Below, piece after piece: positions 1,680 to 48,661 of a DNA stretch of 64,000 nucleotides; position 1 is the first letter of the stretch; the number at the start of each line of letters is the position of its first letter. Position numbers and translations under genes: made by a program. The notes under the pieces are model-generated. The model saw only the letters and a list, made by a program, of their open reading frames with translations, did no database searches and was not told the origin of the DNA. This stretch comes from a virus. The DNA lies in the IMG/VR virus record IMGVR_UViG_3300028844_005756, positions 1-64,000 of that record. One strand, written 5' to 3'.

Positions 1680-2621
1680 TCAACTTTCTAATACACCCAA
1701 AACTTCATAATTTAAATTAACAGATTTTAAATTTTTAGGATCAACTACTAAAACCATTCCTAAACCACAATTAAATGTGCTTCTCATTTCATCATTTGTT
1801 AATGATGTTTTTTCTTGTAACCAACTAAACAATTCTTCATGTGCAAAATAAATTTTTGATTCTGATTTCCAGTTTATAGAATGTTTAGATGAAATACTTC
1901 TATTAATATTATTCCAACCACCTCCAGTAATGTGAGCAACTGCTTTAATATCTACTAATTTTTTTCTAAATTCATCTAAATCATTTTTATATATTTTAGT
2001 TGGTTTTAACAAATTATTTAACAGTTCTTCTGTTATTTTAATTTTATAGTCATCTTTTAGTAATTTGTTTATTAAACTAAAACCATTACTATGAAGACCG
2101 GTACTATAAAGTCCAATTAAAATATCATTCTTTTTAATTTTCTTTGTATTTTCATCTAATTTTGTACCTACTCCAAATCCACAAACATCAAAGTTTTTAT
2201 TTGTTTTAAACATTTCTGGTAATTCAGCAGTTTCACCTCCTACTAATTTTACATTTATATTTTTACAAGCACTATCTATACCTGCTATTACTTCCAGATA
2301 AAAAGATTCATTTAACTCACCTGTTGCAAAATAATCCATAAAAAAAAGAGGTTCTGCATTTTCACATAAAATATCATTCATTACCATAGCTACACAATCT
2401 TCTCCAATTGAATTCATTGGACGTTGATAAACTTCTTTAGCATATTTTGCAAGTAATACTTTTGTACCTACCCCATCACAACTCATAACAAGACTACCAT
2501 TTGACCATTGCGGAAGAACACACGTAGCTGAAAATTTACCAATTTGGTCTGAATAAGTTTTTATTTTATCTACAAGATTATTTGCCAAATTTACATCAAC
2601 TCCAGCATCTTTATAATTCAT
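1680..2621 (-). CDS. purM: phosphoribosylformylglycinamidine cyclo-ligase (AIR synthetase)
   Basis: A 313-residue PurM, slightly shorter than the bacterial enzyme (about 345). It converts FGAM plus ATP to AIR, step 5 of IMP synthesis. The start (YKDAGVD), the SCDGVGTK block near residues 47-54, LVGGETAELPEM and the VAHITGGG block are all family hallmarks of the ATP-binding half. It lies two bases downstream of purQ in a purE-D-S-L-Q-M operon, so it receives the product of the purSLQ complex encoded just upstream. Confidence 0.95.
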   Translation of the reverse strand: MNYKDAGVDVNLANNLVDKIKTYSDQIGKFSATCVLPQWSNGSLVMSCDGVGTKVLLAKYAKEVYQRPMNSIGEDCVAMVMNDILCENAEPLFFMDYFATGELNESFYLEVIAGIDSACKNINVKLVGGETAELPEMFKTNKNFDVCGFGVGTKLDENTKKIKKNDILIGLYSTGLHSNGFSLINKLLKDDYKIKITEELLNNLLKPTKIYKNDLDEFRKKLVDIKAVAHITGGGWNNINRSISSKHSINWKSESKIYFAHEELFSWLQEKTSLTNDEMRSTFNCGLGMVLVVDPKNLKSVNLNYEVLGVLES

Positions 2622-2623
2622 AA

Positions 2624-3241
2624 TTACCTTAATAAGAATTTATCTATTATTATATAACCATCTTTACTTTTGTGATGACTTTCAAAAGCACGTTCTGGAT
2701 GAGGCATTAATCCAAGAACATTACCTTTATTGTTGTATATGCCAGCTATAGCATGTAGACTTCCGTTTGGATTGAGTGGTTTGTAGCGCCAAGCTACTTC
2801 AAAATTAAAATGATCATTTTTATTACAATAAAACTGTCCGTCTCCATGTGCAATTGGTACAGTAATGTTTTTTAGATGATTATCATATAATTCAACTTCT
2901 TTGCATATGAATTTTAAAGTATTATTTTTTCTCAGTGTGCCGGTTAATATCTTTCTCTCACATAGAATCTGAAATCCATTACATATTCCTAAAACTTTTC
3001 TACCATCATTGGCATATTTTTCAATATCATTCATTGCTGGACTTAAACTTGCAAGAATACCGGCACGTAAATAATCTCCATAACTAAATCCACCTGGTAA
3101 AACATACATATCTAATTTTGGAACAGAACTTTCTTTGTGCCAAATTGTAGATACTTGGAATTCCTTATAAGTCTTTAAAAATCTAATAGTTTCTTGCTCA
3201 CAATTGGAACCAGGAAATATAACAACTCCAACCTTATACAT
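2624..3241 (-). CDS. purQ: FGAM synthase, glutamine amidotransferase subunit
   Basis: A 205-residue class I glutamine amidotransferase with the complete triad: nucleophile Cys87 in GICNGFQ, and His181 and Glu183 in MPHPERAFE. It generates ammonia for FGAM synthase, step 4 of IMP synthesis. Its start overlaps the purL stop by one base (TAATG), typical of subunits made in equal amounts. Length is close to bacterial PurQ (about 227). Confidence 0.95.
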   Translation of the reverse strand: MYKVGVVIFPGSNCEQETIRFLKTYKEFQVSTIWHKESSVPKLDMYVLPGGFSYGDYLRAGILASLSPAMNDIEKYANDGRKVLGICNGFQILCERKILTGTLRKNNTLKFICKEVELYDNHLKNITVPIAHGDGQFYCNKNDHFNFEVAWRYKPLNPNGSLHAIAGIYNNKGNVLGLMPHPERAFESHHKSKDGYIIIDKFLLR

Positions 3242-4833
3242 TAATCCTCCATTAAACCAATTGCTCCAAATACTGGAGTAGGTAATATATTTTGTCCTGA
3301 TGTTTCATTATAGAAACTCACATTGCCGCTGACAACAGGAAAGTCCAGTTTCTCACAGATTCTAGCCATTGCATCTATAGTTTCTTTAAACTCAAACATA
3401 ATCTCAGGGTTCTCAGGATTGCCGAAATTCAAACAATTTGTTAATGCTATAGGTTTAGCACCAATAGAAACTAATTTATCATAAACTGAAACTATACAAT
3501 TCTCTGCTCCTTGGTCTGGATTAATATAACTCTGATATGGAAAGCTATCAGTATAAATTGCAATTTGTTTATCTTTACCTCTGGCATCTTTTCTAGGTAT
3601 TCTGACAATAGCTACATCATCTCTAATACCCTTTATTGTATTACCTTGAACTTCACTATCATATTGAGAATGAATTAATTCTGAACTATAAAAATAATTC
3701 TCCTGTGCTTCTTCTCTTTCAAATATTGGTTTCCAGGGTCTTTCCATTTCTGGATATTCTAAAGCACTAAGCGGAAAATTACAACAAACATTACCATCCT
3801 TATACACTGTAAAATTTCCATCTTCTGTTGTATGACCAATTTCTACACAATCCAAATCCCATTTATCAAAAATAGCTTTAGCTTCTTCTATTCCCCGATC
3901 GTGCAAAACAAACAACATTCTTTCCTGAGATTCACTGAGTAAAATCTCCCAAGCTTCCATACCTGTTTCTCTTAACGGAACTTTATCTAGATTTAATTCT
4001 ATACCACATGTTCCTTTAAATAATGCAGAGCCTCCTTTTATACCTATTTCAGTAGAAGAACTGGTAAGTCCTGCTGCTCCCATATCTTGTGCGGCAATCA
4101 CATGTTCTGTTTTTGCTAGTTCAAGACAGGCTTCTATTAACAACTTTTCTAGATATGGATCTCCCACTTGTACAGTAGGGCGTAAATCTACACCATCTGT
4201 GAAACTATCACTTGCCATTACTGCTCCGCCAATACCATCTCTTCCTGTCTTAGCACCGACATATAATAATCTTCCCGGATTTTTGGCTACACTTTTTATA
4301 ATACGTTCTCTAGTATGACCAATTGCCATTGCATTTACTAGTGGATTTTTTTCATATCTTTCATTAAACTTTATTTTACTACTGACAGTGGGTACACCTA
4401 CACAATTTCCATAGTGTGTTAATCCTGCAATCACTCCATCCATAACACGTTTACTATCATCAGAAAATGCAGGGTCTCCGAAAAATAAATTATTGGTAAG
4501 TGCAATAGGTCTAAATCCCATTGTAAAGATATCACGTAGAATACCACCAACTCCGGTTGCTGCACCTTGAAATGGTTCAATATAACTTGGGTGATTATGT
4601 GACTCCATTTTAAATGCGACTTTATCAGTGCCACCAATACTAATTACTCCAGCGTTTTCACCAGGACTTGAAAAAACATATTTGTTATCTGTGTATAATC
4701 TACGTAAATGAGGCTTGCTTGTTTTATAACTGCAATGTTCACTCCACATTGCATCAAAAACGGATTCTTCTGTATGATTCGGTTTTCTATTTAATCTTTT
4801 TTCAATTTCAATTAGTTCATCTTTAGTCAACAT
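3241..4833 (-). CDS. purL: FGAM synthase, large (synthetase) subunit, lacking the C-terminal domain
   Basis: A small-type PurL. The MWSEHCSYK block (about residues 28-36), SPGENAGV, ESHNHPS and the LRETGMEAWEILLSESQERM block identify it. FGAM synthase joins FGAR, ATP and glutamine-derived ammonia. At 530 residues it is shorter than B. subtilis PurL (about 740): it ends right after PTPVFGAIGLMED, which corresponds to the end of the third structural domain, so the last (B2) domain of roughly 190 residues is absent. The end is clean, with purQ starting on the stop codon, so this looks like a settled deletion and not a sequencing frameshift. The partner subunits purS and purQ flank it. Confidence 0.9.
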   Translation of the reverse strand: MLTKDELIEIEKRLNRKPNHTEESVFDAMWSEHCSYKTSKPHLRRLYTDNKYVFSSPGENAGVISIGGTDKVAFKMESHNHPSYIEPFQGAATGVGGILRDIFTMGFRPIALTNNLFFGDPAFSDDSKRVMDGVIAGLTHYGNCVGVPTVSSKIKFNERYEKNPLVNAMAIGHTRERIIKSVAKNPGRLLYVGAKTGRDGIGGAVMASDSFTDGVDLRPTVQVGDPYLEKLLIEACLELAKTEHVIAAQDMGAAGLTSSSTEIGIKGGSALFKGTCGIELNLDKVPLRETGMEAWEILLSESQERMLFVLHDRGIEEAKAIFDKWDLDCVEIGHTTEDGNFTVYKDGNVCCNFPLSALEYPEMERPWKPIFEREEAQENYFYSSELIHSQYDSEVQGNTIKGIRDDVAIVRIPRKDARGKDKQIAIYTDSFPYQSYINPDQGAENCIVSVYDKLVSIGAKPIALTNCLNFGNPENPEIMFEFKETIDAMARICEKLDFPVVSGNVSFYNETSGQNILPTPVFGAIGLMED

Positions 4834-5044
4834 ATTTTACTTCATAATCATAGAGTAATTCGTTTACAAAAAGTTTTTTAGCAATATCATCAACGTCAGC
4901 ATCATTCTCTATTTCTAGATAATAAATCTCCCCTACGGAAATGTGAGTGATTTTTAAATCTTTTCCTACGGAGTTCAGTATTGTTTCCCCTTCTACGTCT
5001 TTGATTCCACTCCGAAGCTTTGTTTGAATTGCCACTTTTTTCAT
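4823..5044 (-). CDS. purS: FGAM synthase, PurS subunit
   Basis: A 73-residue PurS, slightly shorter than the bacterial protein (about 80-84). It is the small subunit that bridges PurL and PurQ. The pattern KLRSGIKDVEGETI, followed by GKDLKITHISVG and a C-terminal LLYDYEV, matches the family. It overlaps purL by eleven bases. Remarkably, about two thirds of the gene is also read in another frame as the C-terminal extension of purD. Confidence 0.9.
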   Translation of the reverse strand: MKKVAIQTKLRSGIKDVEGETILNSVGKDLKITHISVGEIYYLEIENDADVDDIAKKLFVNELLYDYEVKYVD

Positions 5045-6269
5045 TTTTGCCTATGTCCTTTCTGTAGATCATATTATCAAAATTGATTTTATTCACTGCA
5101 TTATACACGTTTTCTCTAGCTTTGTCAAGTGTTTTTTCAAATGTTGTTACATTTAATACTCTTCCACCATTTGTTTTGTATTTTTGAGATTGTTCATCAA
5201 ATACGGTTCCCGCGTGAAATACTTGAACACTATTATCAATTTTATCTAAACCTTCAATGCAATAACCATGTTCATATTTTTGAGGATATCCTTGTGAACA
5301 TAAAGAAACTGTAATAGCATATCCTTCATGAAATTTTGGGTCGGGTAAATTATCTAATGTTCCTTCAGAAATTGCCTTTAAATACGGAGCTAAGTCATCT
5401 TTCATAAGCATCATTAGTACTTGACATTCAGGGTCTCCAAATCTAACATTATATTCTAAGACAAAAGGACCATTTTCATTTATCATTAATCCTATATATA
5501 ATATTCCTTTATATCTACAACCTTCTAAACGCATTCCATTTAATGTAGGTTTTATAATAGTATCTTCTATTCTTTTTTTCATTTTATCAGTGACAAGTGG
5601 ATGTGGAGCAATAGCACCCATTCCGCCTGTATTTGGTCCTTCATCACCATCATTTATTCTTTTATAATCTTTACAAAATGGTAATATTTTATAGCTATCT
5701 CCGTCTGACATGACAAAACAACTTGCTTCAAAACCAAATACATAGTCTTCAAATAATACTTTATTAGAAGAAGATTTAAAAATATTATTAATAAAGATAG
5801 GTGGAATATTCCTCCAAGCTTCTTCTTGAGTTCTTGCAATTACTACTCCCTTTCCTCCACAAAGTCCATCTTCTTTTATTACTACTGGATAATATGGATT
5901 TTCTAAATCTAGTGGTTTAATACTTATAATTTTGTGGGAACGATTATTACGCATGATATCAAGGTCAAGCAACGCTTGATTCATACCATCAGGATTTCTA
6001 GTATACGTCATCCATCTTGCAGTGGGTATATCCCATCGTTGCATAAACTGTTTGGCCCACAATTTACTAGATTCTAATCTAGCCGCAAGCATACTAGGCG
6101 CAACTATTCTTATGAAACCATGTCTATCGGCAATACCATCTGCAATAGGTCCTTCAGGACCTACGACAGTTAATTCTTGCAAATCATTTACAATTTCATG
6201 ACAATGTTTTGTTAATTTCCATTTTATTGCAGATTCTCTGCCACCATTTCCTACAATTTTTACTCTCAC
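4902..6269 (-). CDS. purD: phosphoribosylamine-glycine ligase (GAR synthetase) with C-terminal read-on
   Basis: An ATP-grasp GAR synthetase (step 2 of IMP synthesis). VGNGGRESAI at the N-terminus, VIKEDGLCGGKGVVIA, the DEGPNTGGMGA block and the FGDPECQVLM block are all present. The usual PurD C-terminus (MIYRKDIG) is reached about 50 codons before the stop. The remaining 45 or so residues are basic and low in hydrophobics, run into purS in another frame, and look unlike any PurD, so the original stop codon seems to have been lost. Total length is 455 residues against about 425 in bacteria. Confidence 0.9.
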   Translation of the reverse strand: MRVKIVGNGGRESAIKWKLTKHCHEIVNDLQELTVVGPEGPIADGIADRHGFIRIVAPSMLAARLESSKLWAKQFMQRWDIPTARWMTYTRNPDGMNQALLDLDIMRNNRSHKIISIKPLDLENPYYPVVIKEDGLCGGKGVVIARTQEEAWRNIPPIFINNIFKSSSNKVLFEDYVFGFEASCFVMSDGDSYKILPFCKDYKRINDGDEGPNTGGMGAIAPHPLVTDKMKKRIEDTIIKPTLNGMRLEGCRYKGILYIGLMINENGPFVLEYNVRFGDPECQVLMMLMKDDLAPYLKAISEGTLDNLPDPKFHEGYAITVSLCSQGYPQKYEHGYCIEGLDKIDNSVQVFHAGTVFDEQSQKYKTNGGRVLNVTTFEKTLDKARENVYNAVNKINFDNMIYRKDIGKNEKSGNSNKASEWNQRRRRGNNTELRRKRFKNHSHFRRGDLLSRNRE

Positions 6270-6289
6270 ATTACAATCTCATATGTATA

Positions 6290-6823
6290 TTAAAATATAT
6301 TATTATCAACTACAGTAACATTTCCATCTTCATAATAAGTATTAAATTCAGAATTAATAATGTCTATATCTTTTTCTTGCTTTACTCTTTCGGAAATTAA
6401 TTTTTGATGAAGTGTAGTATTGTTTAGTGCTAATATTTGAAGAGATAAAAGAGCCGCATTTTTAGAATTGTTAATCGCTACTGTTGCGACAGGCACACCT
6501 CTTGGCATTTGCACAATAGATAATAAACTATCCAATCCTTCAGCAGTAGAGGTTCTTACTGGAACACCGATTACAGGAATTGTAGTTAATGCAGCAAACA
6601 TTCCTGGTAAATGTGCTGCTCCACCAGCACCGGCAATAATTACTTTAAATCCATTTTGAATAGCATTTTTAGCATATGTAGCCATTTTCAAAGGTGTTCT
6701 ATGTGCGGATAGAATTTTTTTTTCGTGGGGAATATTATATTCTTGGAGTGTGTCACATGCGGGTTTCATGATATCCCAATCACTTTTACTTCCCATAACA
6801 ACACTAACAATCGGATTTAACAT
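6290..6823 (-). CDS. purE: N5-carboxyaminoimidazole ribonucleotide mutase
   Basis: A class I PurE of 177 residues: GSKSDW binds the phosphate, followed by ILSAHRTP, with [12 protein letters not shown] in the active-site loop. It isomerises N5-CAIR to CAIR. The ATG at 6823 is chosen because GAAAGG sits seven bases upstream; a TTG five codons earlier lies inside that ribosome-binding site. First gene of the purine operon. The partner PurK is not in the window and would come from the host or another part of the genome. Confidence 0.93.
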
Positions 6824-6843
6824 GTCATTTCCTTTCAATTAAA

Positions 6844-7382: not shown

Positions 7383-7832
7383 TTAGTTGACCTGTATAGG
7401 AATTAATTTTAGTCCAATGATATCAGCTAGTCCAGCTGTATCTTCATTACTAAGTGCAATTGCATTTCTATTTCCCAAAACATAACGATATGAATCCATA
7501 GTTGTTGCTTTAACTTCAACTTGTTCTAGTTGTCCTCTGGCAATCTTTTCTTCTATTTTTCTTTTAAGAAGATGTGGAGGTAAAACGGATATTTCACGTA
7601 CTACCGAATCTAATAAAGTTGAATCTTTACCATATAAAACAATGACTAAAGTTGTTTGAACACCTTGAATAGTATCTGTTCTACCTTCCAAAAAATACAT
7701 AAGTTCTTCACCCTCAACTTGTGTTAGTTTATTCTGAGGATGAACGGCTATAGAATTTTGAGCTTGTATAGTTGTAGTTGTTAATAAAAAAGCTACTGCT
7801 AAATTAAAAAACGTAAGTAATAGAGACCGCAT
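7383..7832 (-). CDS. exported PstS-like small periplasmic binding protein
   Basis: 149 residues. The first 24 or so form a typical signal peptide (basic start, hydrophobic core, TIQAQ cleavage region). The mature part begins IAVHPQNKLTQVEGEELMYF, which is the start of the small 'phosphate ABC transporter substrate-binding-like' proteins of Gram-negative bacteria, where HP.N....S..EL..IFLGR is characteristic; here LEGRTDTI follows. These bacterial proteins usually lie beside a porin gene, and so does this one: its start overlaps the porin gene by 29 bases. It should be periplasmic. The ligand is not predictable from sequence, and phosphate binding is not established. Confidence 0.6.
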   Translation of the reverse strand: MRSLLLTFFNLAVAFLLTTTTIQAQNSIAVHPQNKLTQVEGEELMYFLEGRTDTIQGVQTTLVIVLYGKDSTLLDSVVREISVLPPHLLKRKIEEKIARGQLEQVEVKATTMDSYRYVLGNRNAIALSNEDTAGLADIIGLKLIPIQVN

Positions 7833-8952
7833 AGATATCCCAGTATTCCTTTAGATTATTTGTAATTGCTCTTCTGTTTTCTTTCCACGTTAATTGATGT
7901 GTGCCGTTAGAATTACCATACTGACCTTTAAGAATCAAATTATCAAGATAGTCATAAGAAACACCAGCCCCCCTATGAGTTTCTTCTTCGGTATCTTCTA
8001 TGTTATCAAATCCGTAATTTGCCCATAATTTATATTTATAAGTACGATATTGAACCATTGTATTCCAAAACTGTTGTTTGGATGTAGGTAATCTAAATCC
8101 GTAAAACTGTTGCATTAAATCATTTGCAGTTCCATCAGCTTGTCTTAATCTATCTATTTTTTCTACAGTAAAAATATAATTATCCCAATAGTATTCTGCA
8201 GCATTGTATCTGTAAATATAATTTAAATCAACTTCTTTATATGTTTTTTGACTATCTGGTATAAATGGATTTAAACTATAGAATTCTGGAGTTACAAAGA
8301 AGTCAGCAGTGATACTACTTTCTATTTGACGATATCTAAAACTACGATAATTTGCTTCTAATTGATATCCATAATTAACATTCTGTTGTACTGGTTCCAT
8401 ACCAACAAAATCTTGTACGTAATCTTCTTTCGGTCTTAAATCAGTATTTTTACCAGTTAAATATTCTAACTCTAAACAGAGTCCTCCAATGTGATATCTA
8501 CCAAATAAAGAATGTCCATCAATTGATGTTAAAAGTTTTCTTGAATTTTGCCATACCATATTTGTTGGATAATATTGTAGAACAAATGGTCTTTCTGGTG
8601 CAAACTTTGTATCACTCCAAAATCCAAAAGGAACACTCAATCTACCAACTCGGTATCCACCACCAAAATCTCTATTCTTAAAATCTGCTTGTACAAATGA
8701 ATAGTTAAAGTCTAAGTATCTTTCATCATCATATGCAGTTTCAAAAGCAAACAATGAATTCCAATGTAAGTTTTTTGTTATACCTACATTTAGTTGTAAA
8801 CCAGCTTCTATATTTGTATATTCTTCTGGTACTTTGTTTTCTGATGTTTCTACATAGCTAGTAGTTAACCATGAACGTGTATTTAAACGCAATTCAGCGT
8901 ACAATAAACTGTACACTAAACAAAAGATTAGTGTGAGTATAATTTTTTTCAT
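7804..8952 (-). CDS. outer-membrane porin-like beta-barrel protein
   Basis: 382 residues with a cleavable signal peptide (MKKIILTLIFCLVYSLLYA) and alternating amphipathic strands rich in Tyr and Trp throughout. The last residues (AVSITYVF) end in an aromatic Phe, the signal read by the BAM assembly machinery. The stretch RVGRLSVPFGFW followed by RPFVLQY and a later SIDGHSLFG recalls bacterial porins of the DcaP / phosphate-porin kind. It is flanked by a periplasmic binding-protein gene and a membrane coiled-coil gene with overlapping start/stop codons, and lies behind a late promoter. Unusual cargo for a phage; it may alter host uptake or the receptor surface late in infection. Confidence 0.65.
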   Translation of the reverse strand: MKKIILTLIFCLVYSLLYAELRLNTRSWLTTSYVETSENKVPEEYTNIEAGLQLNVGITKNLHWNSLFAFETAYDDERYLDFNYSFVQADFKNRDFGGGYRVGRLSVPFGFWSDTKFAPERPFVLQYYPTNMVWQNSRKLLTSIDGHSLFGRYHIGGLCLELEYLTGKNTDLRPKEDYVQDFVGMEPVQQNVNYGYQLEANYRSFRYRQIESSITADFFVTPEFYSLNPFIPDSQKTYKEVDLNYIYRYNAAEYYWDNYIFTVEKIDRLRQADGTANDLMQQFYGFRLPTSKQQFWNTMVQYRTYKYKLWANYGFDNIEDTEEETHRGAGVSYDYLDNLILKGQYGNSNGTHQLTWKENRRAITNNLKEYWDIYAVSITYVF

Positions 8953-9593
8953 TAGGGATTTTTAGGGAGAATTTTAGATAGTTTGGAATATGCGTCAGAA
9001 ATGCTAAAAGTATTTGTTTCTATACTTTTTTCTGCGGTATTTAATCTACTGGAAACTTTCATGATCTTGTCTTCTATGACAATCATAGATTCTTTCATAG
9101 AATCCACATTGCCTTCCATGATAAACAATTGTTTTTCAACACCTCTATTGTTAACCAACATTTCAGACACTTGGGTTTTCAATAATGGCACGGAATCCAG
9201 TTTAGTTTGCATATCATATAACGAATTCCAAACAGAACCTAAACCCCCGGCAAAAACAACTCCAAGTATCGCACCTACATATTTTGAAACATTTGATTTT
9301 TTAACCGTATTACCATCCAACTCTTCTATCTTATCATGAATATGATCTAACAATTTTTCATGATTATTCTTCTCTCTATCTATAATTGACCCGACTTTAG
9401 GAAGAATAACTTTGTAAAAAAAAGTTTCAAACTCACGATTTAAATGTTCATCGTCAAATACTCTTTTACTAATATCAGTTACTTCTCTTTCAAAAGACCT
9501 TAACTTGATATCTAGTTCGTTTTGTTTTTCAAGTATCTTAACTTCATGTTTAGATAACCACTCATAAAATTGTTCTCTTGATAATTCGGACAT
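8952..9593 (-). CDS. membrane-anchored coiled-coil protein
   Basis: 213 residues. A charged, heptad-rich N-terminal half (about 1-98) precedes a single hydrophobic segment near residues 105-122 (VGAILGVVFAGGLGSVW). A second coiled-coil half follows (about 125-210). No catalytic motif is seen. Its stop shares a base with the start of the porin gene. As first gene of the late envelope cassette it could anchor or organise the other two, but that is inference. Confidence 0.6.
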   Translation of the reverse strand: MSELSREQFYEWLSKHEVKILEKQNELDIKLRSFEREVTDISKRVFDDEHLNREFETFFYKVILPKVGSIIDREKNNHEKLLDHIHDKIEELDGNTVKKSNVSKYVGAILGVVFAGGLGSVWNSLYDMQTKLDSVPLLKTQVSEMLVNNRGVEKQLFIMEGNVDSMKESMIVIEDKIMKVSSRLNTAEKSIETNTFSISDAYSKLSKILPKNP

Positions 9594-9632
9594 TTTAAAA
9601 TGGTTAAAAAAGTTAGTTAATAGAGTGTATAT

Positions 9633-9785
9633 CTATTTATCTTTTAAAACTTTTTTAGCATAATCCGTTAAAATCTCAACAATTAAATCATTTAATTTTA
9701 TATCTCTTTTGTGTGCTTCTAACGCTAATTCTATGAATGTATCGGTAGGTATATCAATAGTCACTAGTTCATCCTGTTCTTCCAT
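9633..9785 (-). CDS. small ribbon-helix-helix-like protein
   Basis: 50 residues. VTIDIPTDTFIELALEAHKRD, a strand followed by a helix, then IKLNDLIVEILTDY, is the layout of ribbon-helix-helix (Arc/MetJ-type) DNA-binding proteins. It begins directly after the stop of the next upstream gene, which has a similar C-terminal domain, so the two may be a tandem pair. Possibly a transcription regulator; the target is unknown. Confidence 0.5.
   Translation of the reverse strand: MEEQDELVTIDIPTDTFIELALEAHKRDIKLNDLIVEILTDYAKKVLKDK
9634..9641 (-). promoter_or_regulatory. T4-type late promoter for the envelope cassette
   Basis: GATAAATA on the minus strand, about 41 bases upstream of the coiled-coil gene start at 9593. 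One base from the T4 late consensus TATAAATA. It would put the coiled-coil/porin/binding-protein genes under gene 55 control. Confidence 0.55.
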
Positions 9786-9786
9786 A

Positions 9787-10107
9787 TTAACATTCCTTTA
9801 ATTTCTGTACAATATATTTCATTAATGTTGTTTCTTTCGCATGAGCCCGCATTGATAATTCTAATACTAATTTTTCTGGTAGGTCTAATATAATCATACA
9901 AGTTTCTTCTTCTTGCGTATATACTCCGCCTTCTTTATCAATCTTTTCAAAAATATTAACATTAGGATTATTTTGTAATTCAGAAATAATATTTGCATTA
10001 ATATAATCCGCTGCAGAATCAACATATGTTTCTCCGCCTGAATTAATTTCTTGTAATAAATTTTTAATATCTCTAAGTTCTTCTAACGCAGACATACTTG
10101 TTCCCAT
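9787..10107 (-). CDS. protein with C-terminal ribbon-helix-helix-like domain
   Basis: 106 residues. The N-terminal part is Asn/Glu-rich and helical (SALEELRDIKNLLQEI). The C-terminal 40 residues, MIILDLPEKLVLELSMRAH followed by TTLMKYIVQKL, repeat the strand-helix-helix layout of the 50-residue gene immediately downstream. Probably a duplicated RHH module. There may be an internal start at Met5. Confidence 0.5.
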   Translation of the reverse strand: MGTSMSALEELRDIKNLLQEINSGGETYVDSAADYINANIISELQNNPNVNIFEKIDKEGGVYTQEEETCMIILDLPEKLVLELSMRAHAKETTLMKYIVQKLKEC

Positions 10108-10113
10108 ATATTG

Positions 10114-10446
10114 TTAAGTCTCCATCATTTCCATATATATATCCAATACATCTTTATGTATCGGAAATGAATTTCCATTTTCTTCCACTATTACATATAC
10201 ACTGTCATTTTCATCATCAATATCTTCTTTATCTATATCTTCATAGTCCTCTTCATATAAATGAAATAAATCATTTAATTTATTTTCCATAGAATCTATA
10301 TCATTATTACTTAAAGTAAGTAGCATTTCTAATTCAGAACCATCAGAATAAACTATTTTTTCTTTTATTTTTACTCCATCATATTCACCAGTCCATTTAA
10401 TTGGTGCTACCGATTTAGAAAATTGAAAAATTTTAGAATTATTCAT
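10114..10446 (-). CDS. hypothetical acidic protein
   Basis: 110 residues with an acidic middle (EEDYEDIDKEDIDDEND) and no motif I recognise. Its first eight bases overlap the preceding gene (10690-10439). Second gene behind the late box at 10734-10741. Confidence 0.55.
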   Translation of the reverse strand: MNNSKIFQFSKSVAPIKWTGEYDGVKIKEKIVYSDGSELEMLLTLSNNDIDSMENKLNDLFHLYEEDYEDIDKEDIDDENDSVYVIVEENGNSFPIHKDVLDIYMEMMET

Positions 10447-10690
10447 ATTTTTTTTTCTTGTGTTGGTTAAAAGTGTTCATTACAGAGAAACTATTTAAAA
10501 TTCCAAAATCATCTACATTTAATAATTTTAAAGTGTTTTTGCTAATATTTTTTTTTACAATTTCTTCGGGAAAAATAAAACATTCATTATTTTTTGAAAT
10601 TATTTGTACTTCATTTTGTTCTAAATTAGAAGAGTAACGAATACTAACATTGACTTTTATATCGGAATCGTGTATAATAAATGGTTTCAT
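10439..10690 (-). CDS. hypothetical protein
   Basis: 83 residues, no recognised domain; a Lys-rich C-terminus (HKKKKYE). First gene downstream of a perfect T4 late box, so probably expressed late. Confidence 0.55.
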   Translation of the reverse strand: MKPFIIHDSDIKVNVSIRYSSNLEQNEVQIISKNNECFIFPEEIVKKNISKNTLKLLNVDDFGILNSFSVMNTFNQHKKKKYE

Positions 10691-10733
10691 ATTTCTTTAT
10701 TTTATTTTAGTAAGCTAATTTAAGTTTACATTC

Positions 10734-10741
10734 TATTTATA
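10734..10741 (-). promoter_or_regulatory. T4-type late promoter, minus strand
   Basis: A perfect TATAAATA on the minus strand 44 bases upstream of the gene at 10690. It shares a 137-base intergenic region with a divergent late box on the plus strand. Confidence 0.7.
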
Positions 10742-10782
10742 GAATACCACAAAAGTTTGAAAAAATCAAGTATTTTTTCAAA

Positions 10783-10790
10783 CATAAATA
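10783..10790 (+). promoter_or_regulatory. T4-type late promoter, plus strand
   Basis: CATAAATA followed by TAAG, 38 bases upstream of the tail-tube-like gene start, one base off the T4 late consensus. Divergent from the minus-strand late box at 10734-10741. Confidence 0.6.
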
Positions 10791-10827
10791 TAAGTAGTTC
10801 AAAATATTAAATAAATTAGGAGAATTC

Positions 10828-11349
10828 ATGTCAGCGCCTTCATTACTAAGTATTAACAATGGGGATTTAGATAATAATTTTTCTCAAGTAAATCGTTTTG
10901 AGATGGTATTTTCTATTCTCCCAAATGTTACATATACGTTAAACGAGGTGAATTTACCTGGATTATCAATAAGCAATCCAATAGTTCCAACTATACTAAA
11001 TCCAACTTATCATGGAGCCGATTCAGCTACTTTTGATCAATTAAATATTAATTTTTTAGTGCAGGAAGATTTTGCTAATTATTTTGAAATACATGATTGG
11101 ATAAGAGCAATTTCATTTCCTGATAGTTTTAATGATAGAAAAGATTTAGAAAGATTTGAAGGTGTTGATAGTTATGGATTTTTGACTATTAATGATAGTT
11201 ATAACCTACCTTTATATAGATTTCATTTCTATAATGTAATACCCAATACATTAACTGGTTTGAATTTGATGGCTGCGGATGCTAATGAACTACTTGCTTC
11301 AGCTTCTTTTAATTATACAATTTACAGAAGGGAAGTTGTCAAAAAATAA
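10828..11349 (+). CDS. tail-tube-fold structural protein
   Basis: 173 residues. The pattern NRFEMVFSILPNVTYTLNEVNLPGLS, then a LNINFLVQEDFANYFEIHDWI block and a C-terminal ASASFNYTIYRRE, matches the tube-fold structural proteins of T4-like marine phages (gp19-type tail tube or a baseplate-tube adaptor). Strong ribosome-binding site (TTAGGAGAATTC). It lies just upstream of uvsY-uvsW. Which tail component it is cannot be decided by eye. Confidence 0.6.
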   Translation: MSAPSLLSINNGDLDNNFSQVNRFEMVFSILPNVTYTLNEVNLPGLSISNPIVPTILNPTYHGADSATFDQLNINFLVQEDFANYFEIHDWIRAISFPDSFNDRKDLERFEGVDSYGFLTINDSYNLPLYRFHFYNVIPNTLTGLNLMAADANELLASASFNYTIYRREVVKK

Positions 11350-11368
11350 TTTTGTTTTTGGAGTTAAT

Positions 11369-11830
11369 ATGATTACCCATGAATTGATTTCTTCCGAATG
11401 GAACAACGACTATCCAAAATATGAAGATATTACAAAGAATTTATCTAATTTAGATGAGATTACATTAAGCGTTGAAAATAAGTACAACAAATACTCTGAT
11501 TTCTATTACGAAGCTTGTAAAGAACTTTATGGTTTACAAAAAAAACAAGAACAAATGGAAAAAGTATTAAAATTATATTATTCAAAAAAACCTATGTCTG
11601 ATGATGATATTGAGAAATATCAATTAGAAGCGTTACAAATTTCGTATACTAAACCTGAAATTGATATGATGGTACGTTCTGATAGTAGAATTCTTGATAT
11701 TAAAACTAAAATAAAAATGAAAGAATTAACTATTGAAAAAATTAGAACATGTATGAAATTCATTACAGATTGGAAATGGAATTTTAGTAAATTTATAGAT
11801 TTGTATAAAATTAAAAATGGAATAATTTGA
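11369..11830 (+). CDS. uvsY: UvsY-like recombination mediator
   Basis: 153 residues. UvsY loads the UvsX recombinase onto ssDNA coated with gp32. The helical C-terminal half (KIKMKELTIEKIRTCMKFI followed by W.W..SKF), the length (T4: 137) and the position directly before uvsW all fit. The start at 11369 has TTGGAG five bases upstream; a longer upstream reading is an overlap with the preceding gene. Confidence 0.7.
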   Translation: MITHELISSEWNNDYPKYEDITKNLSNLDEITLSVENKYNKYSDFYYEACKELYGLQKKQEQMEKVLKLYYSKKPMSDDDIEKYQLEALQISYTKPEIDMMVRSDSRILDIKTKIKMKELTIEKIRTCMKFITDWKWNFSKFIDLYKIKNGII

Positions 11831-11837
11831 GAGTATA

Positions 11838-13286
11838 ATGGAAAAAATAAATGTAAATTTTTTAAATCATAGTGATTGTAGATTAATTTGTTCTCCAAGC
11901 GTAATGAATGAATTGAGTGATGTTTTCTCATATTTTATACCAAGTGCAAGATATCATCCTAAATTTAAAGCTAAAAAATGGGATGGTAAAATACGCTTAG
12001 TAAATATGCGAACAAAAACTATTCCTTATGGGTTAATTCACCGTTTAAAAAATTATTGTAAGATTAAAGAATATGAATTTGAATCTGAATTTTCTTTAGA
12101 ACCTGTAGATTTTAGTGAAGAAAATGCTATAGAATTTATTGAAAATTTACAAATGCCATTTGAAGTTAGAGACTATCAGATTCAGGCATTTGTTCATGCT
12201 GTTCAGAAACAACGGTCCATTTTAGTCTCACCTACTGGTAGTGGTAAGTCTGCTATTATATATTTGCTCATGCGTTTATTCTACGAGTTAGACCGTAGGG
12301 TTTTGATGATTGTACCTACTGTTAATCTTGTAACTCAGATGAGATCTGATTTTGAGGAATATGCAATTAATATAGATAAATTATCTGTTCAAGAGGTATA
12401 TGCAGGTAGGACTAAAGAAGTTTCTTCACCAATCATGATTTCAACTTGGCAAAGTCTGCAGAATCTTGAGCGAGATTGGTTTGACCAATTTGACACCGTT
12501 GTTATTGATGAAACTCATTTAGCTACTGGAAATACACTTCAGAAAATTCTAAACTACTGTAATCATGCAGATTTCCGAGTGGGACTTACCGGAACTTTGA
12601 CTGGAGAAAAGATTCATGAGATGTTACTTATTGGTGCAATTGGTGAACCAAAGAAGATTATAACCACCAGTGAGTTGATTGATAATGAAATGTTAAGTGA
12701 TTTAAAAATCAAATGTTTGATATTAAATCATAAAAATTCTCCACCAAAAATGAACTATCAAGAAGAGATTGCCTACTTGATCTCTCACCAGAAAAGAAAT
12801 GATTTTATTATTAATTTAGCAAAATCTTTGAAAGGCAACACTCTGATTTTGTTTAATTATGTTGAAAATCATGGAGTTATTTTGTATGAGCAAATCACAG
12901 AAGAGATTGAAGATAAAAATATATTTTTCATGAGCGGTGAAACAAAGGCAGAATTACGTGAGAACATTCGCCAACACGTTAGAAACAACCATTCCGATAA
13001 TATCATTTTAGCAAGTAGCGGTGTATTTTCAACAGGAGTGAATATACCGGCATTACATAATGTAATATTTTCCTCACCAACAAAATCTAAAATTAGAGTG
13101 CTACAGTCTGTTGGTAGAATTTTGCGAAAACATGATTCTAAAAATGTTGCGACCGTCTATGACATAGCGGACAAATTATATACAACGAAGAAAAATTATG
13201 TTTTTACTCACTTTGAAGAAAGATACAAGTATTACATTGAAGAAGATTTTGATGTTAAGTACTATGAATTTAATTTAAAGACTTGA
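11838..13286 (+). CDS. uvsW: UvsW-type DNA/RNA helicase
   Basis: 482-residue SF2 helicase, close to T4 UvsW (503). An N-terminal DNA-binding region (RYHPKFKAKKWDGKIRL) precedes Walker A SPTGSGKS (about residue 131), DETH box (about 223) and GLTGTL motif III. The second RecA domain ends with a SVGRILRK motif VI. UvsW unwinds R-loops and drives branch migration, which in T4 shifts replication from origin- to recombination-dependent. The stop codon overlaps the promoter of gene 55. Confidence 0.92.
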   Translation: MEKINVNFLNHSDCRLICSPSVMNELSDVFSYFIPSARYHPKFKAKKWDGKIRLVNMRTKTIPYGLIHRLKNYCKIKEYEFESEFSLEPVDFSEENAIEFIENLQMPFEVRDYQIQAFVHAVQKQRSILVSPTGSGKSAIIYLLMRLFYELDRRVLMIVPTVNLVTQMRSDFEEYAINIDKLSVQEVYAGRTKEVSSPIMISTWQSLQNLERDWFDQFDTVVIDETHLATGNTLQKILNYCNHADFRVGLTGTLTGEKIHEMLLIGAIGEPKKIITTSELIDNEMLSDLKIKCLILNHKNSPPKMNYQEEIAYLISHQKRNDFIINLAKSLKGNTLILFNYVENHGVILYEQITEEIEDKNIFFMSGETKAELRENIRQHVRNNHSDNIILASSGVFSTGVNIPALHNVIFSSPTKSKIRVLQSVGRILRKHDSKNVATVYDIADKLYTTKKNYVFTHFEERYKYYIEEDFDVKYYEFNLKT

Positions 13287-15443: not shown

Positions 15444-16511
15444 ATGCGAATTGAAAATGATGTAAAGTATGATTATAGTGATGTTCTTATTCGGCCTAAA
15501 AGGTCAACACTATCTTCTCGCAATGAAGTTTCTTTAGAAAGAAATTATGCTAGTATTAAATGGACTGGTGTTCCCATTATAGCGGCTAATATGGATGGTG
15601 TTGGTACAATTGAAATGGCAAAAAAACTTAGTGAAATGAAAATGTTTACATGTCTTAAAAAAACATACGACACTTCACAACTTATTGAATTTTTTTCTAA
15701 TAAAATAAATTGTCAACACACAGCAATGAGTATTGGAATTACAGATCATGATTTTCGTAAGTTCTGTGATGTTTATAGTATATGTCAAAATTTAAAATTT
15801 GTTTGTATTGATGTGGCTAACGGATATAGTGAAAGATTTGTAGATTTTGTTAAAAAAATACGTGAAGTTGATTTTAGAGGAATATATGATGAAAAAGCAG
15901 ATGATACATTCCGAAGACACAATCCTTTGTTCATCATTGCTGGAAATGTTGTTACTGGTGAAATGGCAGAACAATTGATTCTTAGTGGTGTTGATATTGT
16001 TAAAGTGGGTATTGGTCCTGGTTCTGCTTGTACTACTCGCATACAAACTGGAGTAGGATATCCACAACTATCTGCTGTAATGGAATGTGCTGATGCGGCA
16101 CATGGATTAGGTGGATTGATTATTGCTGATGGAGGATGTACATGTCCTGGTGATGTAGTTAAAGCATTTGCAGGTGGTGCAGACTTTGTTATGTTAGGTG
16201 GAATGTTAGCCGGTCACGATGAGGGAGGCGGAACTATTATAGAAAAAAATGATGAAAAATATATAGAGTTCTATGGCATGAGTTCCAAGAAAGCTAATGA
16301 AAAACATTTTGGTGGATTGAAAGATTACCGAGCTTCTGAAGGTAGAGAAGTTTTAATTCCTTATCGTGGTGAAGTATCTGAAACCATTCAAGAAATTCTT
16401 GGCGGATTACGTAGTGCTTGTACCTATGTTGGAGCAAGTCAATTAAAACACTTGACAAAATGCACAACATTTGTTAAAGTAAGTAATCAATATAATACTG
16501 TCTTTGCCTAA
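15444..16511 (+). CDS. guaC: GMP reductase
   Basis: 355 residues, the size of E. coli GuaC (347). GPGSACTTR holds the catalytic Cys196, and the following [30 protein letters not shown] and [11 protein letters not shown] blocks match GMP reductase more closely than IMP dehydrogenase. The CBS-domain insert of IMPDH is absent. It deaminates GMP to IMP with NADPH, which would recycle guanine nucleotides toward AMP. Placed inside the gene 47-46 unit with AAGGAA upstream of its ATG. All key residues are present. Confidence 0.88.
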
Positions 16512-27562: not shown

Positions 27563-27871
27563 ATGTCTTATAATGTTTGTTCCTGTAAACTTTCTACAGG
27601 TGAAGAAATTATTGCTAAAATAGATGAAGGTCAAAATTTTTTAAACCAATCCGGCATTATAGAACTAAAACAACCTTTTGTGTTAATACAAACACAGCAG
27701 GGTATTGGAGTTATGCCTTGGATAAACACAGGTTCAACAGAATCGGTAACAATTAAAACAAGTCACGTTGTTACAATTGTTAAGACTAAATCAGAAGTAG
27801 AAGCTATGTATGTTAAAGCAACTTCAGGTATTGATATTGCAACAACAGATGCATCCTCTATTATCATGTAA
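27563..27871 (+). CDS. conserved small phage protein, possibly LSm-like
   Basis: 102 residues. VCSCKLSTGEEIIAKID, then IELKQPFVLIQTQQGIGVMPW, gives a five-strand pattern recalling LSm/Hfq-like barrels. I remember similar uncharacterised proteins beside gene 45 in marine T4-like phages. Function unknown. The start at 27563 is favoured over one five codons earlier, which overlaps the end of gene 45. Confidence 0.55.
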   Translation: MSYNVCSCKLSTGEEIIAKIDEGQNFLNQSGIIELKQPFVLIQTQQGIGVMPWINTGSTESVTIKTSHVVTIVKTKSEVEAMYVKATSGIDIATTDASSIIM

Positions 27872-27872
27872 T

Positions 27873-28445
27873 ATGAAAAACACGATTATAAGCTTGAGTG
27901 TACTTATGATATCCTCTATTACCATAAGTGCAAATGAAAAAACATCTAACATGTTTTATGATAACTCAAGATTTGAAAGAAGTGTAAAATATTGCATACT
28001 AAAGGCGAATAAAAAACAATATTTTGACTTTATAAAATCTATATTTTTGAAATATAATTTACCAAATAAATTAATTTTTATTCCTGTTATTGAAAGTTGT
28101 TTTAACCCCTATGCTAAATCTTCTCAAGGTGCATTAGGAATGTGGCAAATCAATGATATTACTGCCAGACATATTGGACTAAGAGAAGGTTTTTTCACAG
28201 ATGAAAGATATAACTGGAAAAAATCTACAGTTGCTGCAGCAAAATATTTATTATTTTTAAAAGAAAGATTTGATAGTTGGGAATTAGTTCTTGCGGCATA
28301 TAATGTAGGCCCAACTTTTTTGAAAAGTCAAATTGTAAAACATAAAACTTCTAATATTGAGAAATTGAAATTACCTAAAGAAACCAAAGATTATGTTTAT
28401 AAATTTAGAGCATTATTTAAATATTTAAAATTATCAAGGAGTTAA
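27873..28445 (+). CDS. exported lytic transglycosylase (SLT/MltD-like)
   Basis: 190 residues from the ATG at 27873. The N-terminus (MKNTIISLSVLMISSITISA) is a signal peptide. The SLT domain shows the catalytic Glu in FIPVIESCFNP (about residue 74), then SSQGALGMWQI and the LAAYNVGP block. It cleaves the glycan strands of peptidoglycan in the periplasm. With a signal peptide it could act without a holin. A separate M15 endolysin is at 33062. Confidence 0.82.
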   Translation: MKNTIISLSVLMISSITISANEKTSNMFYDNSRFERSVKYCILKANKKQYFDFIKSIFLKYNLPNKLIFIPVIESCFNPYAKSSQGALGMWQINDITARHIGLREGFFTDERYNWKKSTVAAAKYLLFLKERFDSWELVLAAYNVGPTFLKSQIVKHKTSNIEKLKLPKETKDYVYKFRALFKYLKLSRS

Positions 28446-33061: not shown

Positions 33062-33511
33062 ATGTTTAAACTATCACAGCGGTCATTAGACAAACTAGAA
33101 GGTGTAAAACCTGAATTAGTAGATGTTGTTAAAAGAGCAATTGAGTTAACAACAGTAGACTTCGGAGTTATTGAAGGTTTACGAACAGAAGAACAACAGA
33201 AGGCACTTGTAGAAAAAGGTGCATCACAAACAATGAAATCAAAACATCTCACTGGCAATGCTGTAGACTTAATGGCATATGTTGGCGGAAGAGGATGTTG
33301 GGAATTAAATGTATATGATGAAATTGCAGATGCTGTGAAAGCCGCTGCAGAAGAACTCGGAACTCCGATTCGCTGGGGTGCTGCATGGACTGTCAGTGAT
33401 TTGCGAAATTGGGAAGGAACAGCAGAGGAAGCTATGAATGCGTATATAGACATTCGTAGAGCAGAAGGAAGAAGACCTTTTATAGATGCTCCACATTTTG
33501 AGCTTGTATAA
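33062..33511 (+). CDS. M15-family peptidase endolysin
   Basis: 149 residues, like the L-alanyl-D-glutamate peptidase endolysins of other phages. Zinc ligands His62 and Asp69 in KHLTGNAVDLM and His145 in PHFEL; GVIEGLRTEEQQ precedes. It cuts the peptide stem of peptidoglycan. There is no signal peptide, so it needs a holin. Strong ribosome-binding site (AGGAG). Base composition is visibly less AT-rich than the flanking genes. Confidence 0.85.
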   Translation: MFKLSQRSLDKLEGVKPELVDVVKRAIELTTVDFGVIEGLRTEEQQKALVEKGASQTMKSKHLTGNAVDLMAYVGGRGCWELNVYDEIADAVKAAAEELGTPIRWGAAWTVSDLRNWEGTAEEAMNAYIDIRRAEGRRPFIDAPHFELV

Positions 33512-34928: not shown

Positions 34929-35086
<158 letters not shown>

Positions 35087-35094
35087 GTTTTTTT

Positions 35095-35118
35095 AGGTGT
35101 TTTTAGTAAAAAATACCT
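35095..35118 (+). terminator. AT-rich hairpin after tRNA-Arg
   Basis: AGGTGTTTTT pairs with AAAAATACCT (10 bp with one G-U), loop four bases. No clean T-tract follows. It may be a weak terminator or a processing signal. Confidence 0.35.
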
Positions 35119-35171
35119 ATATATGATCAGAAAAAAACTATAAAGACTGAAACGTTTTTTCTGTTTTGTCA

Positions 35172-35207
35172 CCTGTCTAAACAACAGGGTTGCTGATTAG
35201 CAGCAAC
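35172..35207 (+). promoter_or_regulatory. two adjacent hairpins in the leader of the ParB-like gene
   Basis: CCTGT/ACAGG (35172-35188) and GTTGCTG/CAGCAAC with loop ATTAG (35189-35207) sit 31-66 bases before the ATG at 35238. No T-tract, so they are more likely a structured 5' leader than a terminator. Confidence 0.45.
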
Positions 35208-35237
35208 AATTCTATAACTAACCATAGGATAAGTATT

Positions 35238-36608
35238 ATGCAAACTATCAATACCCCCAGTGTAAATCTACACACAACAGAAGCTTTCACCGCAACAGAA
35301 CAAAATATTCTCAAAGAATATCTAGAAAAGAAAGAAAAGAGATTTCCTCATAGATATGATGAAACATATCTTCAAAAGAGCGGATTGCGACTTTCTGAAC
35401 ATTGTGCTATTTTAAATAAAGAAGATATTGTTGTTGAGAAACCAGGTCATTTCACAAACAATTTAGTTTGGGCAGGTGGAATCAATAATAAATTTAATGA
35501 TATTAAGAAAAGTTTAAGTGAAGATGGTTATGAATTATCACATATACCACCTGCAGTTTATTTTGATAAAAAGGAAAAAAAATATCAACTAGTTGATGGA
35601 AGAACTAGATTTAAAATTTTGGAAAATTATGATATTAGTAATATTATAGTAGATATCTATGAGAAAATTGAAGGGGCATCAGAAAAAACAGTTGAATTAG
35701 GATGTGGTAGACTACAAACACAATCAAATTTAGGAAGGGAAATTGCTGGTAAAGTTACTGATAAGGATATTATTTCAAATGTTCATTCATGGATTGAAAG
35801 TGGGTTTATCAAAAAAGAAGACTCGACTACTAAAAAAGAAGAAGATAAACAACCTGATTTGACTAGTATAATAGAGTTTATTAATGATTTTTATAATCCA
35901 TTACATGTTAAAAGTTCTAAAAAAATAAACAATTTAGCAAATGCCGCCAGAGATACATATGGACAAAATACTAAACGAATAGTTTGGATTGATGTTAAAG
36001 ATGTGCAGACTTGGTTGGGTGTAGATAAAAGAACTAATACTAGAATTCCAAATAGTCAAAGACCACCAGAAGACCTTGACAACCCTATGGATAATAAGAA
36101 TTCTTATGTTGATTCTTTTCCAGATGGAGCAACACATAGCAGGGGTACTTGTTATTTAGAAATTGATACAACTCAAGCAAGACGTGCCGTTGCTGCAGCA
36201 GCAAATCATGCTAGATTAAATCCTAACTGCGACATTAGAATTATTATATATGTTAAACAAATAACAGATAATGAAAATCCTGCAATTGCTTATAATAGAG
36301 AAATTACTAGGTTTGTTAGAACTTTTTATGGTACTCTAAATCAAATTTCAGAATGTTATTTTAATAAGGTAACTCCATTAGTTGATGTGGTTTCTATATA
36401 TGGTGCTGTACCAAGTTTAAAAGAGTATCATAATACTAAAGAACTTATTCTTCTTAATTCAGCTTCGGTTGGAACTACTGGGTCTAATCCAAAATGGTTT
36501 CAAAAAAATCCCTTAAAGTTAAATGGAATATCATCATATGATTTATTAAATACTATTTCTATCAATAATAACGAAGAAGAAGATGATGATGATAGTTGGC
36601 TTGATTAA
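35238..36608 (+). CDS. ParB-N-domain-like protein
   Basis: 456 residues from the ATG at 35238. The N-terminal third contains HIPPAVYFDKKEKKYQLVDGRTRFKILEN, the strand-loop-DGRTR-helix pattern of ParB/sulfiredoxin-like nucleotide-binding domains. The remaining 300 residues are unrecognised, and the protein ends in an acidic tail (EEEDDDDSWLD) of the kind that often binds basic or ssDNA-binding partners. It could be a DNA-modification or nuclease protein; no catalytic residues can be named. A structured leader precedes it and a strong terminator follows. Confidence 0.5.
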   Translation: MQTINTPSVNLHTTEAFTATEQNILKEYLEKKEKRFPHRYDETYLQKSGLRLSEHCAILNKEDIVVEKPGHFTNNLVWAGGINNKFNDIKKSLSEDGYELSHIPPAVYFDKKEKKYQLVDGRTRFKILENYDISNIIVDIYEKIEGASEKTVELGCGRLQTQSNLGREIAGKVTDKDIISNVHSWIESGFIKKEDSTTKKEEDKQPDLTSIIEFINDFYNPLHVKSSKKINNLANAARDTYGQNTKRIVWIDVKDVQTWLGVDKRTNTRIPNSQRPPEDLDNPMDNKNSYVDSFPDGATHSRGTCYLEIDTTQARRAVAAAANHARLNPNCDIRIIIYVKQITDNENPAIAYNREITRFVRTFYGTLNQISECYFNKVTPLVDVVSIYGAVPSLKEYHNTKELILLNSASVGTTGSNPKWFQKNPLKLNGISSYDLLNTISINNNEEEDDDDSWLD

Positions 36609-36619
36609 ATAAATATGTT

Positions 36620-36643
36620 GGGGAGATTTTTCTCCCCATTTTT
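36620..36643 (+). terminator. rho-independent terminator
   Basis: GGGGAGA/TCTCCCC with a TTTT loop, followed by ATTTTT. Ends the ParB-like gene transcript just before the promoter at 36656. Confidence 0.88.
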
Positions 36644-38731: not shown

Positions 38732-38748
38732 TTTATTGGTAATAATAT

Positions 38749-38756
38749 GATAAATA
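38749..38756 (+). promoter_or_regulatory. T4-type late promoter
   Basis: GATAAATA followed by TAAAG, 34 bases before the ATG of the exported protein gene at 38790. Confidence 0.55.
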
Positions 38757-38789
38757 TAAAGAAATATAAAACTTATTCAGAGAAAATAA

Positions 38790-39284
38790 ATGAAAAAATT
38801 TCTAGCGGCACTTGCTTGTGGTGCGTTCATAATTGCCAGCACAGTGCCCGTTCAAGCAGACCCTCTTTTATTTGGTAAAGAACTTCCTCCTCCTCAACAA
38901 CAGGTAGTTCCAAAAGGAGTACAACCAAATGTAGATTATCCTACGGTAATGATTGGTCAATTCATGTCATTCTGTATTAATATGATTATGATGAAATTAT
39001 CCAGCGAAGGTGTACCAAGAAATATAGCTGCGGAAAATGCTGGATATGTATGTTCTTGTATTATGGATAGTTATCGTGAAGAAAATCAGCAAGCTGAATT
39101 TCAATTTGAATTAACAAGAAAAAATGAAGGTGATGTTCCATTGTTTAAAAAACATTATACTAACTGTAGTTTATTGAATGCTGAACGAACTGGAAATATG
39201 AACATTAACCCAAGAAAAAGCATTTGGGTTAATCAACTTAACAAACCAGAAAATATTTTAATAAATTTTAAAGAGAAAAAATGA
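38790..39284 (+). CDS. exported cysteine-containing protein of unknown function
   Basis: 164 residues. Signal peptide (MKKFLAALACGAFIIASTVPVQA). The mature part carries four or more Cys (FCINMIM, VCSCIMDSY, TNCSLLN) that could form periplasmic disulfides. No family recognised. Late promoter upstream; stop overlaps the next gene by four bases (ATGA). Confidence 0.6.
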   Translation: MKKFLAALACGAFIIASTVPVQADPLLFGKELPPPQQQVVPKGVQPNVDYPTVMIGQFMSFCINMIMMKLSSEGVPRNIAAENAGYVCSCIMDSYREENQQAEFQFELTRKNEGDVPLFKKHYTNCSLLNAERTGNMNINPRKSIWVNQLNKPENILINFKEKK

Positions 39285-48391: not shown

Positions 48392-48661
48392 ATGAGTGAA
48401 AATAAGTTAAACGAATATAATAGTTGGCGAGTATTATTTTATGAAAGTGAGGATGAACTTTATGAAGGATATTTGTTTAAATCTAAAAATGATGCTTTAG
48501 AAGCAGCAATGCAGTTTTGTAGACAAATGAGTCCCAATGAGAGAACAAAACTTATAAAAGCTAATGCTAAAGGTATGATATTAGGCGCCAGAAATTCTAA
48601 TGAATTTACTATCATAAAACCCCCCGAAAACGAAAAATTTAAAAAAAGTGAAAAACAATGA
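48392..48661 (+). CDS. hypothetical protein
   Basis: 89 residues; YNSWRVLFYESEDELYEGYLFKSKNDALEAA looks like a small alpha/beta domain. Basic tail. Four-base overlap with the nuclease gene. Confidence 0.5.
   Translation: MSENKLNEYNSWRVLFYESEDELYEGYLFKSKNDALEAAMQFCRQMSPNERTKLIKANAKGMILGARNSNEFTIIKPPENEKFKKSEKQ

Follow-up and report, generated by a model that had tools for sequence, protein, structure and literature searches.

The stretch of DNA analysed here, called the window, covers positions 1-64000 of an 85.8-kb virus record. It contains a locus of three genes, A, B and C, that is real and, as judged by selection, functional. The locus is a phage-borne variant of a bacterial pair consisting of a porin and a small periplasmic binding protein (PBP), and is not categorically new. 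On homology, B and C can be read as the phage version of this envelope pair, a porin-type barrel with a small periplasmic PBP-like partner. The function that we favour, at a little short of even chances, is a late remodelling of outer-membrane permeability by B and C, together with A, which would admit small solutes for phage nucleotide synthesis. The features of the locus are as follows.

8952-9593, minus strand: gene A, putative bitopic membrane coiled-coil protein of 213 aa (ORF, hydropathy, homologs in L005, L006, L031 and L171).
7804-8952, minus strand: gene B, predicted porin-like outer-membrane barrel of 382 aa with a signal-like segment and a C-terminal Phe beta-signal (ORF, homology).
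8503-8658, minus strand: most conserved part of B, residues 99-150, beginning GRLSVPFGFWSDTKFAPERPFVLQYYPTNMVWQN (92% invariant across three phages, with the highest density of residues in common with bacteria).
7383-7832, minus strand: gene C, predicted periplasmic protein of 149 aa with a signal peptide, belonging as a divergent form to the PstS-like small PBPs (ORF, profiles).
7819-9666, minus strand: allelic exchange tract that spans A, the spacer upstream of it and B and stops a short way into C (window versus G001, of lineage L005).
9634-9641, minus strand: candidate late box GATAAATA, of NATAAATA type, 48 nt upstream of A.
10734-10741, minus strand: canonical TATAAATA heading the whole minus-strand operon, which runs from 10690 to 7383 (motif match).

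An earlier note had described three overlapping minus-strand genes, and the open reading frames lie exactly where it placed them, tightly packed within 7383-9593. A and B share one base (TAATG), and B and C overlap by 29 nt. Inspection and hydropathy were the sole basis for calling signal peptides and membrane topology. Pfam, NCBIfam, PHROGs and PADLOC were scanned with A, B and C and returned nothing convincing, and no ABC transporter genes occur among the neighbours.

Gene B appears to encode an outer-membrane barrel, as indicated by homology, strand pattern and beta-signal. The signal segment (MKKIILTLIFCLVYSLLYA/E, recognized by inspection) and the terminal Phe (in WDIYAVSITYVF) ascribed to B are both seen in its sequence. 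Of the 60 window ORFs that reach 120 aa, B alone has a beta-signal-like C terminus. The AlphaFold2 model from a three-sequence alignment shows many antiparallel strands, but at a pLDDT of 43.2 it does not establish a 16- or 18-strand barrel fold at useful confidence. Foldseek searches with this low-confidence model ranked outer-membrane barrels almost exclusively at the top, none at E<=0.001. Sequence searches of the PDB with B found nothing, and tblastn against 50,697 phage records gave no match to B at E 0.1. The most conserved part of B contains a GRL..PFG motif common to the bacterial relatives and probably represents the pore-lining or constriction loop. General porins have a conserved inward loop that defines the pore. 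Since the most conserved stretch of B is also the part shared with bacteria, pore function may well be retained.

The bacterial relatives tie B to a defined chromosomal arrangement. A profile of the three phage B sequences gave 28 matches at E<=0.1 in 369 gammaproteobacterial genomes (best 9e-8), typically ORFs of 400-450 aa around GR.K.PFG.YN.TRD...TRP.ILLPQSIY. One of these bacterial porins matches Porin_O_P below the Pfam cut-off. In all 20 gammaproteobacterial loci read, a small PstS-like (PBP) gene, located with a profile made from six seed loci and not from C, adjoins the porin gene, so that the claim of a known chromosomal arrangement proved true. The next gene encodes a large membrane protein in 11 of the 20 pairs, and the three such proteins checked all have the architecture dCache_3 - (PAS) - GGDEF - EAL. 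Compared by hhalign, B matches the bacterial porins at 8e-16 over 340 columns of its 382 residues, C terminus included. C matches the small PBPs at 1.1e-5 over 115 columns. As a control, the bacterial profiles were run over 173 window ORFs: the porin profile found B as its only significant match (5e-17, next best 1.2) and the small PBP profile found only C (6e-5, next best 0.03). The score of B is partly circular because the bacterial porins were found using B; neither the PBP adjacency nor the match of C depends on this. B can thus be placed in a bacterial outer-membrane barrel family, and C appears homologous to the small PBP partner of the porin, on evidence that is weak but consistent and weaker than that linking B to the porin. 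No convincing match to the B profile was found in 289 alphaproteobacterial genomes or in 248 genomes from the phylum of a Balneolales MAG, hence the porin-PBP pair is not present in every Gram-negative group sampled. The bacterial small PBP - porin - dCache_3-GGDEF-EAL cluster of L146-L161 (e.g., L151 at 8138-12734) is apparently uncharacterised and often has a gene for a FeeM-like N-acyl amino acid synthase as a neighbor. In L162, L163 and L164, the porin and small PBP genes stand in the order of the phage and adjoin a type VI secretion FHA-domain gene.

A second group of relatives stands in the phylum of G007 (MAG 'Deltaproteobacteria bacterium NP72'), where 6 of 52 genomes contain matches to the B profile (best 2.5e-8). 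There the porin gene precedes the PBP gene, as it does in the phage, at a distance of 6 nt, and a histidine kinase gene lies divergently beside the pair (domains checked in one case). The PBP of this group likewise is without the AWDR/SGTG motif of gammaproteobacterial small PBPs and has an EGRT-type segment. In a maximum-likelihood porin tree, phage B and the second group fall on one side of a branch supported at 95/95, a clustering in which attraction is possible given the long branches (1.4-2.6). Identities to this group are only 19-22%, or about 19-24% for the porin - small PBP pair. A signal-peptide staphylococcal-nuclease-like gene is found in the window at 48658-49095 (plus strand), and L183-L188 of the second group have a similar one at a distance of about 2.5 kb from their porin-PBP pair.

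Gene C was described as PstS-like in the earlier note, which holds in part. C begins with a signal-like segment (...TTTTIQA/QN), keeps the overall pattern of small PBPs and resembles the small PstS-like partner of the bacterial porin, but it is not a full PstS. Neither Pfam nor NCBIfam gave a match for C, and the alignment lacks both AWDR and the SGTG/SGTGQAP motif of the gammaproteobacterial small PBPs. The missing motif makes phosphate binding doubtful and, together with the lack of ABC transporter genes nearby, ligand capture as well. A PstS-type substrate-binding protein would show a family match above the cut-off, a two-lobe size and ABC genes, none of which is seen for C at 149 aa. PDB sequence searches with C gave chance matches only, Foldseek on the C model (pLDDT 54) nothing, and a pattern search of bacterial genomes no relative. 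Because the small-PBP pattern is kept and the motif is missing, as in the second bacterial group, C seems better named a periplasmic partner of PBP descent than PstS.

Gene A has a single hydrophobic stretch at about residues 105-125 and probably adopts an N-in, C-out topology. In L031, a distant relative of the window phage, A occurs at 39% identity without B or C; the locus there is occupied by two genes with phrog_1644 matches and, beyond them, by one for a binding protein of the TRAP DctP type. In L171, A (46% identity) is directly followed by a C homolog (E 2e-12), with no porin. These two arrangements indicate that A is a resident phage gene separable from B and C, C an older associate, and B the most labile part. 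The view of a self-contained three-gene cassette, and of A as a dedicated part of it, does not survive this comparison. Relatives of A show weak profile matches to phrog_937 hemolysin and phrog_689 holin (E 0.0008-0.06). Together with the late box, these matches could suggest that A is a holin- or spanin-like coiled coil and that B and C disturb the envelope to aid lysis, or a role in the virion. We consider this improbable, as such matches are typical of coiled coils, the window has its genes for an endolysin (33062-33511) and a transglycosylase (27810-28445) at other places, and B and C have their relatives among chromosomal envelope genes.

The neighbors of the bacterial pairs are sensors, not transporters, which weakens a feeding role for B and C and suggests that the pair may sense instead. 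The bacterial pair might feed a membrane sensor, as proposed by the large membrane proteins following 11 of 20 gammaproteobacterial pairs and the divergent histidine kinase gene of the second group. The phage pair, with A replacing the sensor, would then compete with or decoy the sensor of the host. A would suit this role with its membrane segment and periplasmic coiled coil and its lack of an output domain, domain scans having found neither a GGDEF-EAL nor a histidine kinase domain in A. Nevertheless, L031 has A but neither B nor C, A showed no homology to the bacterial sensors, and no host genome with a matching sensor was identified, so that we regard such a hijacking as rather unlikely. 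A bolder version, to which we assign a slightly lower probability still, holds that the phage took from a bacterial envelope sensory module the half that receives the input, and coupled it to A. The acquired half would serve as a late decoy or silencer of a c-di-GMP or histidine-kinase nutrient sensor, with A and B swapped to match hosts or rivals.

The triplet had been expected to recur in other phages if genuine, and it does. Intact A-B-C is found in three lineages of viral contigs, namely the window phage, L005 and L006, and three contigs are identical to the window phage in all three proteins. Protein identity to the window phage is 85% (A), 79% (B) and 99% (C) in L005 and 70%, 71% and 74-75% in L006. 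The triplet is absent from the 50,697 phage records by tblastn of A, B and C, and tblastn of B and C against plasmids found no relative. A, B and C are under purifying selection, with dN/dS of about 0.13-0.22 in pairs with appreciable divergence; this is within or slightly above the 0.08-0.15 of core phage genes (window versus L006). The conserved order in L005 and L006, together with these values, excludes chance ORFs. The narrow distribution of only three lineages could fit an ordinary passenger role, in which a pair of host origin is carried along by hitch-hiking and gives the phage no advantage. The genes have however stayed intact across lineages at dS near 1 and dN/dS of about 0.2, which leaves this scenario very little probability.

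Part of the locus has been exchanged between near-identical phages. The alignment of the window with G001 spans about 62 kb and contains 466 mismatches, of which 317 (68%) fall within the 1.85-kb tract covering A and B. Identity is about 99.7% outside the tract and 80-87% per gene inside. The swapped B allele has a dS of 0.89, near the window-L006 value, so the tract was acquired from a diverged relative by recombination rather than through local mutation. Diversifying selection on B is ruled out by a dN/dS of 0.155. Two further differences separate these genomes. A second hotspot at 38512-38963 (about 59 differences) covers a GATAAATA box together with the first part of the signal-peptide gene at 38790-39284. 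At 35017-36639, a 472-aa gene of the window (35190-36608) is replaced in G001 by a gene of about 400 aa and other sequence.

Such a swap is explained more easily by conflict between phages than by altered permeability. B, with C and A, might displace, block or mask a surface structure used by related phages, resulting in superinfection exclusion or receptor replacement. The exchange of A and B as a block, a second hotspot likewise covering the start of a signal-peptide gene behind a late-type box, and the proposed late remodelling of the surface all fit this account, and the Lc/NmpC porin of lambdoid PA-2 provides a precedent. On the other hand, the swapped B allele shows no sign of diversification, its conserved part is the presumed pore motif, masking requires no periplasmic PBP-like partner, and a chance recombination tract could produce the same swap. 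Exclusion is a serious rival to altered permeability, though on balance the less likely of the two.

Late expression of A-B-C is likely, given the placement of the box upstream of A and the conservation of its position in L006. The late control proposed in the earlier note is hence plausible. NATAAATA is the late motif of S-PM2-type cyanomyoviruses (PMC2984593), and a box of this type stands at promoter distance from A as in T4-type late genes. At the homologous position, L006 has TATAAATA with diverged flanking bases. This conservation is partly of coding origin, since GATAAATA overlaps the stop codon of the gene upstream of A. The TATAAATA at the head of the operon is not conserved in L006. 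GATAAATA is not enriched in the window (4 found against 9.2 expected), and the 8 exact copies of TATAAATA are likewise below expectation, with 5 of them 51-72 nt upstream of same-strand gene starts. The case for GATAAATA as a promoter element would therefore be one of placement, not of abundance in the window.

The phage itself can be classified as T4-like and is probably marine. The UvsW-type helicase shares 41-45% identity with its counterparts in cyanophages and in Pelagibacter phage Mosig, a tail tube gene is present, and no close relative was found among phage records. A minus-strand block at 1680-6838 provides a near-complete purine set (purM, purQ, purL, purD and purE, with purM and purQ assigned by inspection), and an IMPDH/GMP-reductase gene lies at 15444-16511. 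Signals of the host conflict. PurE matches many phyla at 48-63%, and PurL is, among the groups sampled, nearer to Alphaproteobacteria (50-54%, full length) than to the NP72 phylum (46-49%), whereas Gammaproteobacteria and the NP72 phylum are the groups indicated by the porin. The TRAP DctP-type solute-binding protein gene of L031 (4141-5274, minus strand) adjoins a DUF3008-like gene at nearly the same locus. L031 (46-903, minus strand) and L171 (8186-9055, plus strand) also encode IscU-like proteins, apparently interrupted by an intein-like insertion. These genes adjoin one for a Bax-inhibitor-1-type membrane protein, with IscA-like genes nearby.

The abundance of purine-synthesis genes, and the solute-binding protein near the locus in the sister phage L031, are the reasons for favouring altered permeability. 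We propose that A, B and C would be transcribed together, late in infection, from the gp55-type box. After export, B would form an extra diffusion pore in the outer membrane, and C would reside in the periplasm, possibly docked at the pore mouth of B. A, held by the inner membrane and extending a coiled coil into the periplasm, may tether B and C. The altered permeability of the infected cell might then let small solutes enter for the large nucleotide-synthesis programme and so benefit the phage. The timing counts against this proposal, as late expression is late for feeding, and so does the low confidence of the structure model of B.

The locus resembles several known systems without matching any. 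It shares with the gammaproteobacterial small PBP - porin (- dCache_3 GGDEF-EAL) cluster the full-length porin homology, an adjacent homologous PBP, signal segments and the C-terminal Phe. It differs in the low identity (about 20%), an order inverted relative to most of these loci, where the PBP comes first, the missing motif of C, and the unrelated coiled coil A in place of a GGDEF-EAL sensor. A GGDEF-EAL or histidine kinase sensor is absent from the phage locus but is not universal in the bacterial loci either, given the 11 of 20. The pair of the NP72 phylum agrees with the phage locus in its order, motif-poor PBP and clustering with B, but differs in its distant sequence, long branches and a kinase missing from the phage. 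Likeness to PstS/PBP_like_2 (PF12849) extends to a sub-threshold match of the small PBP of L151, a bacterial relative of C (3.9e-5), while C is one small domain without the Pfam match and ABC genes of that family. We know of no porin accompanying pstS in the cyanophages P-SSM2 and P-SSM4. In both, pstS is a separate gene (PMC2984593).

Phage-encoded outer-membrane porins have precedents in Lc (PA-2) and NmpC (DLP12). B shares this property with them, but it stands in a lytic T4-like setting with a periplasmic partner and is unmatched in the phage records searched. To our knowledge, phage genes that rebuild the outer membrane of the host are little described outside lambdoid prophages. The presence of NmpC in DLP12 has been noted (PMC11148124). 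In the literature searched, with partial coverage, no paper on the PBP-porin-sensor cluster or on such a phage porin was found. The window phage thus presents a lytic T4-like phage with a two-compartment envelope pair, pore and periplasmic partner, under likely late control. Having a distant porin gene of its own and a periplasmic partner under a late promoter, the phage probably rebuilds the outer surface of its host late in infection. The swap of A and B makes the locus a possible target of selection between near-identical phages. The locus raises two testable questions, namely what the input of the bacterial PBP-porin-sensor cluster is and whether phages alter the permeability or the receptors of the outer membrane late in infection.
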